Assembly (NCBI GenBank): GCA_003225315.1 | Contig: QHZD01000019.1 | Span: forward strand, 262,311-326,310 | DNA: 64,000 nt | Direction of reading: 5' to 3' | Source of the DNA: Acidobacteriota bacterium | GTDB taxonomy: Bacteria; Acidobacteriota; Terriglobia; Acidiferrales; UBA7541 | In this document: piece by piece, positions 37,610-44,039 of the stretch | Position numbering within the stretch: position 1 is the stretch's first letter | How the letters are laid out: every line of letters starts with the position of its first letter | Made by a program: the position numbers and the translations under genes | The notes under the pieces: generated by a model | The model's database searches: none | Told to the model about the DNA's origin: nothing | What the model saw: the letters and a program-made list of their open reading frames with translations, nothing else

Positions 37610-38299
37610 TTAGCGCAATCGGTTCTTATACATGGCCATGCCGACGGCGGCGTCCATGCCCATCTTTTCTAGTGCGGCGATCTCGCTCCTTGTTTTGATG
37701 CCGCCTGCGGCAATAATCGGATGGGCCGTCGTGTTGCGCAGCTTGCGAAACCAGTCGAGGTTCGCGCCCGTCATTGTCCCCTCGCGGTCTACGTCTGTGC
37801 AGAGAAATCCCGCGCAGTAGGGTTCGAGTTGCGTCATCACTTTCTCAACCTGCAACCTCAGCTTCTTCCGCCAGCCGTGAATGGTGATTTTCCCGTCCGC
37901 TGTGTCGAGTGCGATGACGATTTTCTCGCGGGCGATGTTCTCTGTGAGCTCCTGCAGAAAGTGCGCATTCACTTTTCCATCTTTGAACGCTGCGCTTCCG
38001 ACAATAATCTGGTTCGCCCCCCAGCTGACAACTTCTTGCGCGCGGAAGATGCTTCGAATGCCGCCGCCGACGCGCACCTTCATCCCGAAATCAGTTCTTG
38101 CTTTCGCGCAAAGGTTGCGAACGAGATCATCATTTGCGCCCTTGCCCATGGCAGCATCCAAATCAATCACATGTAGCCAGAGATGTTTCTTGAACTTTTC
38201 CAGTTGTCCAAAGACATCCGCAACCGCCAGCTCGCGCTTCCGCCCGTGCACCAGCTGAACAGCTTGCCCGCTTTGCAAGTCGATGCAGGGAATCAGCAC
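37610..38299 (-). CDS. hisA: HisA, phosphoribosylformimino-AICAR-phosphate isomerase
   Basis: 229 aa TIM barrel, last gene of the his operon; the start overlaps the end of hisF by 7 bases. HisA opens the ribose ring of ProFAR to give PRFAR. Motifs: IPCIDLQSGQAVQLVHG at the N-terminus with the catalytic Asp, VRVGGGIRS, VIALDTADG with the second Asp, TDVDREGTM, and HPIIAAGGI. The first motif is PCIDLQ rather than the usual PAIDLK, and the segments differ enough from standard HisA to suggest a divergent subgroup, but position in the operon makes the assignment firm. Confidence 0.9.
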   Translation of the reverse strand: MLIPCIDLQSGQAVQLVHGRKRELAVADVFGQLEKFKKHLWLHVIDLDAAMGKGANDDLVRNLCAKARTDFGMKVRVGGGIRSIFRAQEVVSWGANQIIVGSAAFKDGKVNAHFLQELTENIAREKIVIALDTADGKITIHGWRKKLRLQVEKVMTQLEPYCAGFLCTDVDREGTMTGANLDWFRKLRNTTAHPIIAAGGIKTRSEIAALEKMGMDAAVGMAMYKNRLR

Positions 38300-39057
38300 G
38301 GGAGGCGAACCTCGACTCCGCTTGAGGCCAGAAATTGCTTCAGCGCGTGAATGGATTGCACTTCATCGTGAAAGATCGAGGCCGCCAAAGCCGCGTCCGC
38401 CGCCCCTTCCCGGAAAACCTCGACAAAATGAGCGGGCGATTTGGCACCGCCGGACGCAATCACCGGAACCGTTACGGCGCCGGAAATTGCCGCGGTCAGT
38501 GTCACGTCGAAGCCGCTTTGCGTGCCGTCGCGGTCCACAGAGGTCAGCAAAATTTCGCCGGCGCCTGCTGCCACTCCCATGCGCGCCCACTCGATGGCAT
38601 CGCGTGATGCGGATTCGCGTCCGCCGCGAACCATGACGTCCCAGTGATCTCCGGAGCGCTTTGCATCGATCGCCAGGACAACGGCTTGCGCGCCAAACTC
38701 CCGCGACAATTCGGAAATTAACTCCGCCCGCTCGACTGCTGCGGTGTTCACCGTTACCTTGTCTGCACCGGCGCGCACCACGGCGCGGCCGTCTTCGAGC
38801 GTTCGAATACCGCCGCCAGCGGTGAGAGGAATCGCCAATTGCGCGGCGACGCGGCGGATTGTTTCGAGAAAAGTGGGGCGGCGGTCGCGGGAAGCCGCAA
38901 TGTCGAGCACCACCAATTCGTCAGCGCCCTCGGCATTATAGCGAGCCGCGAGCGCAACGGGGTCGCCCGCATCGCGCAGACCCACAAAGTTCACGCCCTT
39001 CACGACGCGTTCGCCGTCAGTATCGAGGCACGGGATGATGCGGTGCGCGAGGCTCAT
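38293..39057 (-). CDS. hisF: HisF, imidazole glycerol phosphate synthase cyclase subunit
   Basis: 254 aa, standard length. Catalytic Asp in RIIPCLDTDGERVVKGVNF (the usual family reading is LDVDxGRVVKG), second Asp in LAIDAKRSG. Phosphate-binding loops AGGGIRTLEDG, SVDRDGTQSGFD and VIASGGA are present. It takes ammonia from HisH to make imidazole glycerol phosphate and AICAR. The start overlaps the hisH stop (ATGA). Confidence 0.96.
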   Translation of the reverse strand: MSLAHRIIPCLDTDGERVVKGVNFVGLRDAGDPVALAARYNAEGADELVVLDIAASRDRRPTFLETIRRVAAQLAIPLTAGGGIRTLEDGRAVVRAGADKVTVNTAAVERAELISELSREFGAQAVVLAIDAKRSGDHWDVMVRGGRESASRDAIEWARMGVAAGAGEILLTSVDRDGTQSGFDVTLTAAISGAVTVPVIASGGAKSPAHFVEVFREGAADAALAASIFHDEVQSIHALKQFLASSGVEVRLPC

Positions 39058-39656
39058 GCCGCGAGCCTCAGGAAATTCTGGAGAATGCGAGCGCCAGAAT
39101 CACCGCTCTTTTCGGGATGAAATTGCACGGCAAAAATATTTCGTTGCTCGATAACGGCCGCAAATTCCGCACCGTGGGAGCAGGTGGCCGCTGTGTCATT
39201 CGAATCGAGCGCGGCGTAGGAGTGCGCAAAATAGAAATACGCTCCAGCGTCAATGCCTGAGAGCAGGGAAGACTCCCGTTTCTTTTCAATTTGGTTCCAA
39301 CCCATGTGCGGCAGCTTCACGCCCGGCGGCAAAGCGGAAACGATTTCTGGTAGGAGATTCAGGCCTCGGAGTTCAGAGGCTTCTTCGCTCAACTTGAAAA
39401 GAACTTGCAGCCCGAGGCAAATCCCCAGAAAGGGCACGCCGCGGTGGATGGCGTCAATCAGAGGCGCGCGGAGATGCTTTTCGTCGAGGGCGCGAACCAG
39501 CGCGGCGTAGTGACCGACGCCGGGAAGCAGCAGGGCTTCCGCCTTAGAGATGCATTCAGGTGACGACGTGCGATGAGACTCCACGCCGAGGCGCTGGAGG
39601 GCGCGCTCGACGGAGGGCACATTGCCGGCGCCGTAGTCGAGGATGGTTATTTTCAT
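39054..39656 (-). CDS. hisH: HisH, imidazole glycerol phosphate synthase glutaminase subunit
   Basis: 200 aa class-I glutamine amidotransferase. Nucleophile C80 in [12 protein letters not shown], and the His/Glu pair in [10 protein letters not shown]; oxyanion segment LLPGVGHY. It supplies ammonia to HisF. Starts with ATGA overlap on hisB and ends with ATGA overlap on hisF. Confidence 0.96.
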
Positions 39657-40243
39657 AGCAGCCCCTTGGTGCTGGGCAAAACCTGGCGAAGGCGCTTGTC
39701 GCGAGACACGGCGAAACGCAGCGCGCGCGCAAATGCCTTGAAGATCGCTTCGACTTGATGGTGCGAGGATCGGCCGTACAGGGCGCGAAGATGGACATTG
39801 GCTTTTGCCGACTGCGCGAAGCCTTGAAAAAAATCCTCTATCAGTTCAACCTGGAAATCACCGATGCGATTTGCACTGATCTTTGCATCTACAACGCAGT
39901 AGGGCCGGCCACCAAGATCAACCGCAGCGGCCGCGAGCGTTTCGTCCATAGGCATCAGAAAATAGCCCGCGCGCAGAATTCCTCGCTTCGAGCCAAGAGC
40001 TTTCTGCACCGCTTCGCCGAGCGTGATGCCGACATCTTCGACCGTATGATGTTGGTCCACGTCGAGATCGCCGCGCGCGTCCACGATCAGATCAAACGCA
40101 CCGTGTCGCGCCACCAATTCGAGCATATGGTCGAAGAAGCGGATTCCAGTGGCGATGCGAGCGTTCCCGCGGCCGTCCAGATTGAGTTTCAGGCGGATGT
40201 CCGTCTCGTTTGTTTTGCGATGAATGTTGGCAGTTCGCGGCAT
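39653..40243 (-). CDS. hisB: HisB, imidazoleglycerol-phosphate dehydratase
   Basis: 196 aa from the ATG at 40243 ([16 protein letters not shown]), preferred over an upstream Met because the family begins here. It is the monofunctional dehydratase, without the phosphatase half seen in enterobacteria. Metal-binding motifs: [45 protein letters not shown]. Separated from hisC by 23 bases, the only real gap within the operon. Histidinol-phosphate phosphatase must be encoded elsewhere. Confidence 0.95.
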
Positions 40244-40266
40244 TTTTATCTTTGCGATCCCACAAT

Positions 40267-41331
40267 TCAGGCTGGCGCTTTCCATTCCTTTCGAATGGCC
40301 TTCAACAGCTTCTTCATTTCAGCTGGCGTTCCTATGGAAATGCGGACGAATCCCGGGCCCATGTCCTTGGTGCGCTCGCGCAGAAGAATCCCTTGCCTCT
40401 CAAGCTTTCCAAAGAGTGCGGGTCCCTTTGCCCCGAAATTGGCCAGCAGAAAATTTCCGGCGCTGGGGAAGGAGCGCACGCCGAGCTTCTGCAGTTCGGC
40501 GGCCAGCCACGCACGAAACCGTTTCACTTCGCTGACATATGCTTGCATCGTCATGCGGTCTTGAACGGCAGCTTCGGCGGCTACCAGTGCGCCAAGATTC
40601 ACAGGAAAGGGCGGCATGGCGCGGCGCACGAGTGCAAGCGATTCTTTGCAGCCGACGACCGCGCCGAGCCGCAGCGACGCGAGGCCAGCGACCTTTGAAA
40701 ACGTTCTGGCGACAAACAGGTGGCGAAACTTGCGAATCCAGGGCACTGCGGTGAAGCCTGAAAACTCCGCGTAAGCTTCGTCCATCACAACGGCGGTGTG
40801 CGTGGCGGCATGCAGGATTTTCTCCAGTTCCTTGAAACCAAAGAGAGTGCCAGTAGGATTGTTGGGGTTCGCGAGAAAAAGGACACGTGGCTCTTTCCGC
40901 AGCGCCGCAAGGATGCCCTCCAGCGGGAACTCCATTTCGGTGCCGTAGTGCAATGCCGAGATTCGAGCGCCGTATATTTCCGCGTAGTAGCGATACATAG
41001 GAAACGTCGGCTCGCAAATTAGGACACTGCTTCCAGCCTCGACAAACGTGTCGAAGAAAACTCGCAGCGCATCGTCTCCGCCGTTGGCGAGAAGAAGTTC
41101 TTCCGGACGAACGCCGAAGTAGCGGGCCAGACGCGTTGTTGGCGCCTGATATTCCGGGTACATTGCCAGTTGCTTGGAGGTGAGCTTTGCCAGCGCGCGC
41201 AGCACTGCGGGAGAGCAGCCGGTCGTGTTCTCATTGAAGTCCAGCCGCACTTTATCCGCGCGGCCTTCCGCAGGCGCTTCATACGTGCGGCGATTCAGAA
41301 TCGCTTTTCGCACTGGCAAGTGAACCTTCAT
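40267..41331 (-). CDS. hisC: HisC, histidinol-phosphate aminotransferase
   Basis: 354 aa class-I/II PLP enzyme. LANPNNPTG around residue 153, [10 protein letters not shown] at 181-190, and the PLP lysine K213 in [15 protein letters not shown]. Converts imidazole acetol phosphate to histidinol phosphate. The start overlaps the hisD stop (ATGA). Confidence 0.95.
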
Positions 41332-42581
41332 CTGCGAACCCTTACGGCGTTGCGGTGAGCCATCAAGCCTTCGGATTCTGCCAGAGTTTCGACTGTATCG
41401 GCGAGGCGAAGGAAACCATCGCGACTAATGGTTTGCACGCTGATGCATTTCACAAAGTCGGCCGCCGAAAGCCCGCCTCGTTTGTGTGCCCAACCCCCAG
41501 TCGGGAGGACGTGATTGCTGCCGGTAGCATAGTCGCCAAGCGGCTGGGCGCCCCAAGGGCCAAGAAAGATGGTGCCGGCTGATCGGTTTTTTTGCAGGAT
41601 CCGTTCGGCGTTCTCAGGAAGGCTAAGATGTTCCGGGGCGAAGCGATTGACGAATTCGCAGGCCTGCTCGAGCGAATTTGCCACGAGAATTGCGCCGGCC
41701 GTTTCCGTGGAGACGCTAGCCATTCCAGGAGGAAGTTCGGCGAGTTGCCATTTAATCTCGCGTTGCACTTCTTGGGCGAGCGAGTGTGAAATGGTGACGA
41801 AATAGCTTGCGGCGTCTCTTGCGTGCTCCGCCTGGGCAAGCAAATCGGCAGCAATCCATCGAGCATTGCCATCGGCGGCGGCGAGTACAACCGCCTCCGT
41901 GGGGCCCGCCGGCAGATCGATGGCGCAATCGCTGCTGACCAGTTGTTTGGCGGCGGTGACGTACTTGTTGCCCGGGCCGAAGATTTTCTCCACGCGCGGA
42001 ATCGAATTTGTGCCATATGCGAGAGCGGCAATCGCTTGCGCTCCCCCAACGCGGGCGATCTTTTCAATGCCGAGTAGATTTGCGGTTGCCAGCAGCTCGG
42101 GATTCGGCCGCGGGCAAACGGCAGCGATATGCGGAACTCCGGCGACTTGCGCGGGGACCGCCGTCATGACGAGCGTGGATACGAGGGAAAAGCGGCCGCC
42201 GGGGATGTAGCAGCCGACGGATTCGATAGGGGAAACGCGCTGACTGATCTTGACGCCAGGTTCGGTCTCGGTGGTCCACGGGCGGGGAAGCTGCTGTTCG
42301 GCTACCTGGCGGACGTTCTTCGCAGCTCTCCGGATGGCCTTCAGGAAATCAGGACTCACCTGTGCTTTGGCAGAGCGGATTTCTTCTCTCGAAATCCAGA
42401 CTCCAGCTCGCGAGAGGTCTAAATCATCCAGTTTCTTGCTCCAGGCAAAGAGAGCGGAATCGCCGCGCCTTCGCACATCCGCGACGATTTCGGCGGCCAC
42501 GGATTGGGCTTCATCGTCGCGCTGGGCGCGGCGCGCGAGGAGCCACTTTTCGGTTCGCGGAGTGAGCTTGAGGATGCGCAT
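41328..42581 (-). CDS. hisD: HisD, histidinol dehydrogenase
   Basis: 417 aa, usual length. Signature stretches: VGCYIPGGRFSLVSTLVMTAVPAQVAGV, KIFGPGNKYVTAAKQLV, IDLPAGPTEAVVLA, LAQAEHARDA, and NRFAPEHLSL; the zinc and catalytic residues (Glu/His of the APEHL motif, Asp and His near DYATGSNHVLPTGGWA) are present. Carries out the last two oxidations to L-histidine. Its start codon overlaps the hisG stop (TGATG). Confidence 0.97.
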   Translation of the reverse strand: MRILKLTPRTEKWLLARRAQRDDEAQSVAAEIVADVRRRGDSALFAWSKKLDDLDLSRAGVWISREEIRSAKAQVSPDFLKAIRRAAKNVRQVAEQQLPRPWTTETEPGVKISQRVSPIESVGCYIPGGRFSLVSTLVMTAVPAQVAGVPHIAAVCPRPNPELLATANLLGIEKIARVGGAQAIAALAYGTNSIPRVEKIFGPGNKYVTAAKQLVSSDCAIDLPAGPTEAVVLAAADGNARWIAADLLAQAEHARDAASYFVTISHSLAQEVQREIKWQLAELPPGMASVSTETAGAILVANSLEQACEFVNRFAPEHLSLPENAERILQKNRSAGTIFLGPWGAQPLGDYATGSNHVLPTGGWAHKRGGLSAADFVKCISVQTISRDGFLRLADTVETLAESEGLMAHRNAVRVRR

Positions 42582-43453
42582 CAGAGGACGATTTTGTTCA
42601 AAGGATATTCGACGATACCTTGGGCCTTGGCGGCTTTCAGCTTGGGTAGGATCTGCCGCACAACGGCTTCCTCGACGATCGTGTTGATGGCTACCCAGTC
42701 CGGGTCGCTGAGAGCAGAGATAGTGGGGTTCTTGAGCGCCGGGAGAGCGCCCAGCACACCCTGTAAGTCGTCGCGATGCACGTTGAGAAGAAGGCCGACT
42801 CTGCTGGCTGCCGCGATAGCGCCCTGAAGCATCAGGATCAGGTTTTCCGCCTTTTCACGCTTCCAGGAATCGGCCGCGCTGGCGCGATTCATGATGAAAA
42901 CAGTTGCGGATTCCAGGACCGTATCTACGATGCGCAGACGATTGGCGCGCAGCGACGAGCCGGTCTCAGTAACTTCGACGATGGCGTCCGCGAGCTGCGG
43001 CACCTTCACTTCCGTGGCTCCCCAGGAAAACTCCACGTGGGCCTTCACGCCGTGCTTGGCGAGGTAGTTCTGCGTAATCTGTACGACTTCCGTGGCGATC
43101 ACTTTGCCTTCCAGGTCGCGTGGCTGGCGGATTGCGCAGTCCTCCGGCACGGCCAGGACCCAGCGCACGCGCGCAAGACGCTGCTTGGCATAAACCAGTT
43201 CCGAGAGTTCTTCCACGGCCGCGCTCGTTTCCACCACCCAGTCGTGCCCCGTGATTCCTGCGTCCAGGGCGCCGGATTCGACGTAGCGTGCCATTTCCTG
43301 TGCGCGCACCATCAAACATTCGATTTCCGTGTCGTCAATGGTTGGGACGTAACTGCGCGAACTCAATGTGATTTTCCAGCCGGCGCGCGAAAAAAGATCA
43401 AGCGTCGCGTCCTGAAGGCTGCCTTTCGGAATCCCCAGCTTCAGTCGGCTCAT
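42581..43453 (-). CDS. hisG: HisG, ATP phosphoribosyltransferase (long form)
   Basis: 290 aa, so the long form with the C-terminal ACT-like regulatory domain that gives histidine feedback inhibition; it does not need HisZ. Motifs: [41 protein letters not shown], and the PRPP loop [20 protein letters not shown]. First committed step of histidine synthesis. ATGA overlap with hisI upstream. Confidence 0.96.
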
Positions 43454-43842
43454 CGGGATTTTTCCTTACCGTAAACCTTCTCCGGCGCGAAAGTACGCCC
43501 AGAGATAATTTTTGCGTTTCCATCCGCTTCGATCGACCGGAAGAAGCAGCTCCGGTATCCCTCATGACAGACGCCCGGCCCAACGGCCTCGACACGCACG
43601 AGTAGCGCGTCTGCATCGCAATCCACGCGCATCTCGCGAACCCGCAAGATGTGGCCGCTGGATTCGCCCTTTTTCCAGAGCTTGTTTCGCGAGCGGCTGA
43701 AAAACACGACTTCGCCCGTGCGCCGCGTTTCCGCAAGGGATTCCGCATTCATGAACCCAAGCATCAGGACGTCGCCATTACTCCCGTCCTGAATGATGGC
43801 CGGTACCAGTCCGCCGCTTTTCTGAAAGTCGATCTCCACCAT
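43450..43842 (-). CDS. hisI: HisI, phosphoribosyl-AMP cyclohydrolase
   Basis: 130 aa from the ATG at 43842 ([11 protein letters not shown]), supported by AGGAG at 43848-43852; the frame is open upstream but crosses the attenuator. Family motifs: [47 protein letters not shown], and [13 protein letters not shown] with the zinc-binding cysteines. The HisE pyrophosphohydrolase domain that is often fused behind HisI is absent here and no separate hisE is in the operon. First structural gene of the operon. Confidence 0.95.
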
Positions 43843-43852
43843 TTTGTCTCCT

Positions 43853-43891
43853 AAAAATAAAAATCCCGCTGGAGCTTGCTGCGCCAGCGGG
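43853..43891 (-). terminator. his operon attenuator (intrinsic terminator hairpin)
   Basis: On the minus strand: CCCGCTGG, an 11-nt loop, CCAGCGGG (8-bp perfect stem, 43865-43872 with 43884-43891), followed by ATTTTTATTTTT. It lies directly in front of the hisI ribosome site and behind the His-rich leader peptide, with no other minus-strand gene upstream to terminate, so it fits an attenuator. The loop segment CAGCAAGC can instead pair with GCCTGCTG inside the leader reading frame (complement of 43931-43938), a candidate antiterminator. Confidence 0.8.
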
Positions 43892-43918
43892 CCAAAGCGT
43901 GCTTTGTTTAGCGAATCG

Positions 43919-43999
43919 CTATGCACACCTCAGCAGGCGCGGCGTGTGGCCGTCATGATGATGGTGGCGATGCGCCCGAGTTGTATGTGTGCGGTTCAT
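43919..43999 (-). CDS. hisL: Histidine operon leader peptide
   Basis: A 26-codon frame, ATG at 43999, TAG at 43919-43921, encoding a peptide that begins [18 protein letters not shown] and then ends in a short Arg/Leu-rich tail. Seven of 26 residues are His, four of them consecutive (residues 12-15). It stops 28 bases before the terminator hairpin and 77 bases before hisI. This is the arrangement of hisL in enterobacteria: ribosome stalling at His codons when His-tRNA is scarce would favour an alternative fold and let transcription continue into hisI. No strong ribosome site precedes it; the upstream promoter places it very near the 5' end of the transcript. The His content and context make chance unlikely. 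Confidence 0.8.
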
Positions 44000-44010
44000 T
44001 TCCACTATCT

Positions 44011-44039
44011 AAGGTAAAAGAACTCGTCGAGCCTGTCAA
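44011..44039 (-). promoter_or_regulatory. Promoter of the his operon
   Basis: On the minus strand, a perfect -35 box TTGACA (complement of 44034-44039), 17 bp, then TACCTT (complement of 44011-44016) as -10. The predicted start site, near 44004, is only about five bases before the hisL ATG. Confidence 0.65.

Follow-up and report, generated by a model that had tools for sequence, protein, structure and literature searches.

The histidine operon of the Acidobacteriota bacterium considered here is preceded by a candidate attenuator of transcription. The translating ribosome would sense charged tRNA-His and thereby control hisIGDCBHFA; we assign this reading a probability of roughly 0.9. A predicted leader frame with its His codons, the promoter position, the terminator, and the complementarity between the segments denoted 2 and 3 below emerge from sequence comparison. 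The comparison supports a variant of known attenuation that is widely distributed in the phylum.

The window, that is, the whole analysed stretch of 64,000 nucleotides, contains the element on the minus strand. Positions 44039 to 43842 are occupied, in this order, by a promoter, a His-rich frame, a GC-rich hairpin with two T5 runs, an AGGAG box and hisI. The sequence-only reading had listed a promoter, a 26-codon leader with seven His codons, an 8-bp terminator, a U tract, a Shine-Dalgarno box and hisI, and all of them are present. The first gene of the regulated operon, hisI (43450..43842, minus strand, ATG at 43842), matches PF01502 and, above the cut-off, NF000768. The remaining genes hisG, hisD, hisC, hisB, hisH, hisF and hisA (37610..43453, minus strand) were identified by domain or NCBIfam matches; hisA falls under its NCBIfam cut-off, the top match being TIGR00007. 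The operon comprises eight genes in the order hisIGDCBHFA. The Shine-Dalgarno box AGGAG of hisI (43848..43852, minus strand, read directly) lies immediately 3' of the U tract. No minus-strand gene ends upstream of the terminator, as had been claimed: the upstream neighbour, msrB, is divergent and lies on the plus strand.

The predicted hisL-like leader frame (43919..43999, minus strand; ATG at 43999, stop codon TAG at 43919) has 26 codons and no Shine-Dalgarno box. Seven codons encode histidine (residues 5, 10, 12-15 and 18). The four successive His codons at residues 12-15 (43955..43966, minus strand, read directly) are the likely stall site, and the His run is kept in relatives. Of 151 relatives, 121 have a hisI match, as do 248 of 396 genomes sampled from the phylum. 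We compared 130 upstream regions (own genome included), 106 from the 121 relatives and 24 from others; because genomes were chosen by HisI similarity, distant lineages are under-sampled. A short frame with at least four His in 10 residues was observed in 112 of the 130 regions upstream of hisI, source genome included; dinucleotide shuffling produced one in 20 of 2600 sequences, and none of 130 reverse complements has it. With at least three His in 10 residues, the counts are 115/130 upstream regions, 201/2600 shuffles and 8/130 reverse complements. The His frame upstream of hisI is beyond chance. The leader peptides are 18-32 residues long with a median of six His, and codon use is mixed (CAT 392, CAC 328). 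As anticipated by the sequence-only reading, relatives keep the His frame, the terminator and the U tract, and their sequence and spacing vary. The opposite pattern, with nucleotides kept and the frame or hairpin lost, is absent in 102 of 110 same-class genomes.

A candidate promoter (44011..44039, minus strand) was identified by direct reading: TTGACA at -35 (44039-44034), a 17-nt spacer, and TACCTT at -10 (44016-44011). A strict scan found no promoter at 44011..44039, because TACCTT matches TATAAT at only three of six positions. In the relatives, the region searched began 60 nt ahead of the leader start and ended 6 nt beyond it. Promoter candidates were obtained for 112 of 115 leaders, and 101 of the 112 score at least 8, against 210 of 2300 shuffles. 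Among these 101 candidates, the distance from the -10 box to the start codon is 8-11 nt in 86 and 6-16 nt in 99; the two outliers are at 35 and 38 nt. As a rule, transcription starts about 7 nt downstream of the -10 box. With this spacing, some 1-5 nt of transcript would precede the AUG in most relatives, and in the source genome the leader would begin about 5 nt after (about +6 from) the expected transcription start. Four-mers resembling a Shine-Dalgarno box precede the leader start in 4/115 cases, compared with 95/115 near the hisI start. Since its start is mostly 8-11 nt past the -10 box and lacks a Shine-Dalgarno box, the predicted sensor frame looks leaderless or near-leaderless. About 13% of genes are predicted to be leaderless in three Acidobacteria genomes, according to the available part of PMC3160421.

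The candidate intrinsic terminator (43853..43891, minus strand) consists of the 5' arm CCCGCTGG (43891-43884) and the 3' arm CCAGCGGG (43872-43865), forming eight pairs, and the U tract ATTTTTATTTTT (43864-43853). Its energy in the source genome is -19.1 kcal/mol. Hairpins of -8 kcal/mol or lower with a T-rich tail follow 114 of 115 leaders, 18-49 nt past the leader stop, and all 114 tails have at least six T in 12. In the alignment of 62 family sequences (A1), the arms pair in 99.0% of cells, with two-sided changes in three of eight pairs; slid partners pair in at most 51.7% of cells in the same alignment. A hairpin at this place could alternatively mask the ribosome-binding site of hisI and so attenuate translation, and in the source genome the Shine-Dalgarno box does follow the U tract immediately. 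However, that box lies outside the hairpin, and the distance from the terminator to hisI, with a median of 35 nt, exceeds 40 nt in 38/114 cases and extends to about 185. The U-rich tail in all 114 cases and the widely varying distance favour termination over hiding of the Shine-Dalgarno box, and we consider translational attenuation very unlikely.

Two further observations concern the hairpins of this region. In four genomes of the clade labelled f1g12 (G046, G056, G063 and G072), the terminator stem is longer and a pyrimidine tract similar to CTTCTCCTTTTT replaces the pure T run. The small hairpin CAAAG-CACG-CTTTG (43893..43906, minus strand), already pointed out in the sequence-only reading, is indeed present at 43906-43893 in the minimum free energy fold. 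Its conservation fails, as it is intact in just three of 31 genus rows; it was rejected as a conserved pause hairpin and is probably incidental.

The candidate antiterminator is formed by the end of the leader frame and the region of the terminator 5' arm. Its 5' strand, segment 2, is CCGCGCCTGCTGAGGTGTGC in leader codons 20-26 (43923..43942, minus strand), delimited by duplex energy and pair counts; its 3' strand, segment 3, is GCACGCTTTGGC together with CCGCTGGCGCAG (43879..43902, minus strand) and overlaps the terminator 5' arm. In the source genome, the duplex has 12 continuous pairs plus outer ones, with an energy of -31.0 kcal/mol (z -2.1; 5 of 100 shuffles equal it). In 82 of 114 leaders at most 5 of 100 shuffles pair as well with segment 3 as the leader end does (mean z -2.44); the other 32 miss this threshold. 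Pairing is weak in the clades labelled f7 and f8 (mean z -1.6). Distant clades preserve the pairing with other bases: in f6, for example, UGUCAGUGGG pairs with CCCGCUGACA, and in f8 UGCCAGCGG pairs with CCGCUGGCA. When partners were swapped across clades, own partners were clearly better in f1g5, f1g10, f1g7, f3, f54 and f34, and the swapped ones were about equal in f8, f7, f1g2, f38, f25 and f56.

The two helices of the antiterminator differ in conservation. The outer helix is paired in 84.2% of cells of A1, with slid partners at 52.9% at most, and shows two-sided changes in five of nine pairs, a number reached in 17 of 500 shuffles. For the inner, lower helix the paired fraction of A1 cells is 66.8%, and its covariation does not exceed that of shuffles (117/500); it shifts from one genus to another, and in the genus itself 298 of 372 cells are paired. 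An antiterminator that overlaps the leader end and excludes the terminator is seen in these sequences, and it is weak in some clades. The antiterminator originally proposed, GCCTGCTG with CAGCAAGC, had to be abandoned: only nine of the 62 family sequences, and eight of the 31 from the genus, keep six or more of its seven pairs, and 43902-43879 is a better partner of the leader end. Finally, in the minimum free energy fold of the ribosome-free leader, segment 1 (CGGGCGC, 43972..43978, minus strand) is paired with the beginning of segment 2 (43940-43934); CGGGCGCA is largely conserved in the genus alignment.

The sequence-only reading had suggested folding the leader with and without a stalled ribosome. 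At equilibrium, the mean probability of the terminator is 0.98 with the ribosome at the stop codon. For a ribosome halfway along the His run the mean is 0.76; in this state the probability falls below 0.5 in 21 of 114 leaders and is 0.99 in the source genome. The terminator thus dominates in most stalled states, and therefore the switch must rest on the order of co-transcriptional folding. We calculated the cost of freeing the terminator 5' arm in RNA extending only to the terminator loop, the 3' arm being not yet made. The cost averages 7.4 kcal/mol for the whole leader; a ribosome placed mid-run raises it to 14.9, and one at the stop codon lowers it to 4.6 (8.0, 13.4 and 4.4 in the source genome). 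In 112 of 114 leaders the stalled state, taken as the best of three positions, is at least 5 kcal/mol above the stop state. With the leader end shuffled, the stalled cost drops from 14.9 to 8.0; 113 of 114 leaders exceed the mean of their own controls, and in 86/114 at most one of 20 shuffles is as high. Length alone does not explain the effect, because the whole leader, although the longest, has a lower cost than the stalled one, and because shuffling of the leader end reduces the cost. That stalled and non-stalled ribosomes favour different structures is supported by the sequestration of the 5' arm ahead of 3' arm synthesis (14.9 against 4.6), and mostly not by equilibrium folding (21/114 leaders). 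The switch is likely kinetic rather than purely thermodynamic in these models.

We infer the following events in the cell. Transcription would start a few nucleotides upstream of the leader AUG, and a ribosome would load on the near-leaderless start. When His-tRNA is ample, it would reach the stop codon and cover segment 2, so that segments 3 and 4 could form the terminator and transcription would end before hisI. When His-tRNA is scarce, it would stall on the His run, leaving segment 2 free to pair with nascent segment 3; this pairing would occupy the terminator 5' arm, and RNA polymerase would enter the operon. If no ribosome is present, segments 1 and 2 would pair and the terminator would form. 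Ribosome-stalling his attenuation, proposed earlier for this locus, is supported by the conserved frame, terminator and U tract and by the mixed CAT and CAC codons.

At the gathering score, an Rfam scan of the window yielded four tRNAs only, with neither the His leader RF00514 nor a T-box. Twenty further loci, including some from lineages whose hisI lacks a his leader, were scanned; the E. coli control alone matched, and no T-box was found. The positive control, E. coli hisL, scored 131.6 bits against RF00514. It is conceivable that some other trans-acting regulator, such as a protein antiterminator, a small RNA or T-box-like reading of tRNA, uses the terminator and that the His frame is incidental, since the long leader folds stably without a ribosome (z -2.96). 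Such a regulator is also very unlikely, as neither a T-box nor any other cis element of Rfam exceeds the gathering score in the window and the His frame, with its mixed codons, is conserved far beyond shuffles. Least probable of all is a functional His-rich metal-binding small protein or trans-acting peptide encoded before the operon by chance: the frame is conserved and leader peptides can act in trans (peTrpL, in the accessible text of PMC7298713), but the peptide outside the His run varies freely among clades while RNA complementarity persists, and in relatives the frame is placed between the his promoter and the terminator.

The predicted attenuator resembles enterobacterial hisL (RF00514) in having a leader with His codons, a terminator before the first his gene and an alternative pairing by which the terminator is released or blocked. 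The enterobacterial his attenuator is a set of stems A-F, in contrast to the single antiterminator helix here. The Acidobacteriota element also differs in having hisI rather than hisG first and in lacking a leader Shine-Dalgarno box. For E. coli hisL, the same calculation of opening energy gave 1.5, 7.0 and 2.7 kcal/mol for the whole leader, mid-run and stop states, changes in the same direction. The enterobacterial layout suggested earlier holds only in part: the window has no match to RF00514, the stems follow a simpler 1:2, 2:3 and 3:4 plan, and the frame looks leaderless.

Ribosome-stalling his leaders had been regarded as mainly proteobacterial. In part this needs correction, as they have also been predicted in some Firmicutes: in the B. 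cereus group, Peptostreptococcaceae and Erysipelotrichales according to the available part of PMC9413887, and before hisS and hisZ of bacilli in that of PMC2965389. Like the element described here, the Firmicutes leaders of PMC9413887 have a His run in a short frame and comparatively predicted terminators and antiterminators; they belong to another phylum, and the likeness is one of description rather than of aligned leader sequences. Acidobacteria are not named in the accessible text of PMC9413887. As far as the available text of PMC2965389 goes, almost no predicted attenuator of Acidobacteria has a function. Leader genes of Acidobacteria were counted in PMC4833913, the accessible part of which mentions none of his. 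No his attenuator of Acidobacteriota was found in the open-licence literature, which is weak evidence, subscription papers being mostly outside its scope.

Leaderless attenuators are known elsewhere. The leader frame of S. meliloti trpL is at the 5' end of the RNA, as predicted here, in the portion of PMC7298713 available; that system differs in its Trp codons, its alphaproteobacterial host and its experimentally mapped start. Mycobacteria have leaderless attenuators with poly-Cys upstream ORFs (Canestrari et al. 2020, cited in PMC9031893). Their leaderless short ORF, in which a run of one codon senses an amino acid, resembles the apparently leaderless frame predicted here; according to the accessible text of PMC9031893, they sense cysteine, occur in Actinomycetota and control translation of the downstream genes.

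The leader is present in 102 of 110 same-class genomes; from elsewhere in the phylum, 13 of 20 genomes have it. No His frame was found in eight same-class upstream regions (G096, G101, G104, G109, G115, G118, G134, G142) and seven others (G172, G196, G345, G360, G438, G462, G463). In several of these 15 genomes out of 130, where inspected, hisI is not the first his gene and often lies behind other genes. In one of them, G345, a His-rich frame MLNLQISRFHAHFHHHALVKGA was observed 147-78 nt upstream of hisG (locus L189), in a lineage whose hisI lies elsewhere; the leader may follow whichever his gene comes first.

A covariance model, R1, was built from the 62 family sequences of A1. With E at most 0.01 and stricter filters applied, it matches 162 of 299 same-class genomes. 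In the window, the his element scores 120.7 bits, and the runner-up, at 15.6 bits, is the other strand of the terminator. Eight genomes (G007, G010, G077, G358, G521, G533, G557, G600) have two or three matches each. The HisI alignment also provided 80 named loci, 11 of which have a His frame. Ten of the 80 carry Acidobacteriota titles, and nine of these have the frame (L286 does not); the titles of the His-frame loci include Bryobacterales/Bryobacteraceae, Terriglobia, Acidobacteriia, Sulfopaludibacter and Vicinamibacterales. The other 70 loci have two His frames, in L283, titled Ferrithrix, and L285, titled Armatimonadetes; these bins share the same His leader and terminator and may be mislabelled or reflect transfer. 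Bryobacterales belong to the class Terriglobia and Vicinamibacterales to Vicinamibacteria, and therefore the element occurs in at least two named classes. These titles agree with the Acidobacteriota origin guessed in the sequence-only reading. New here are a predicted his attenuator that spans two named classes of Acidobacteriota and many lineages, and the apparently leaderless character of its sensor frame.

Leaders for other amino acids were sought as well. Because ilvD precedes ilvB in the genus of the source genome, the search was moved to ilvD. A second candidate attenuator was found in the same genome before ilvD-ilvB (G000:C39, locus L257), in the interval from about 310 to 120 nt ahead of the ilvD match. 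It has an Ile/Val-rich frame MLCLSITNHRIFSRHGNARIVDSIVVRIIPVPKRGNRRMMAA, followed by GGCCATCATCC...GGTTGATGG with a T tract, and the leader end GGATGATGGC pairs with GCCATCATCC at -23.5 kcal/mol (z -3.6). Of 16 genus loci, 14 show the terminator pattern, with a mean pairing z of -2.7 over these 14, and a frame rich in Val, Ile and Leu codons before ilvD passes the filter in eight of the 16. In another family of the class (G098, locus L122), a frame LLRTVIIVGVVPGPA starting with TTG lies about 180-130 nt before ilvB and precedes a strong hairpin with a T tract. No convincing Trp leader was found before the trpE matches in 24 loci, a weak null result because trpE matches often lie inside an operon; L102 and L105 have frames with two Trp codons each and L111 has one, all of which were judged to be due to chance.

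We lean slightly towards a broader interpretation, in which Acidobacteriota would own an old lineage of amino acid attenuators with a leaderless sensor. The 70S ribosome would load on the emerging AUG, coupling transcription and translation from the first codon; his would be the widest member of this lineage and ilv would follow the same plan, with none in Rfam 15 at the gathering score where scanned.

For many lineages of a phylum that is abundant in soil, the candidate attenuator now has a signal, a target and a mechanism open to testing. Its near-leaderless sensor frame would provide a natural test of attenuation without initiation led by a Shine-Dalgarno box. Model R1 and the structure could become an RNA family. 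The element would show where the his transcription unit of these genomes truly begins, and its predicted effect is that the his genes would be transcribed only when histidine is short.
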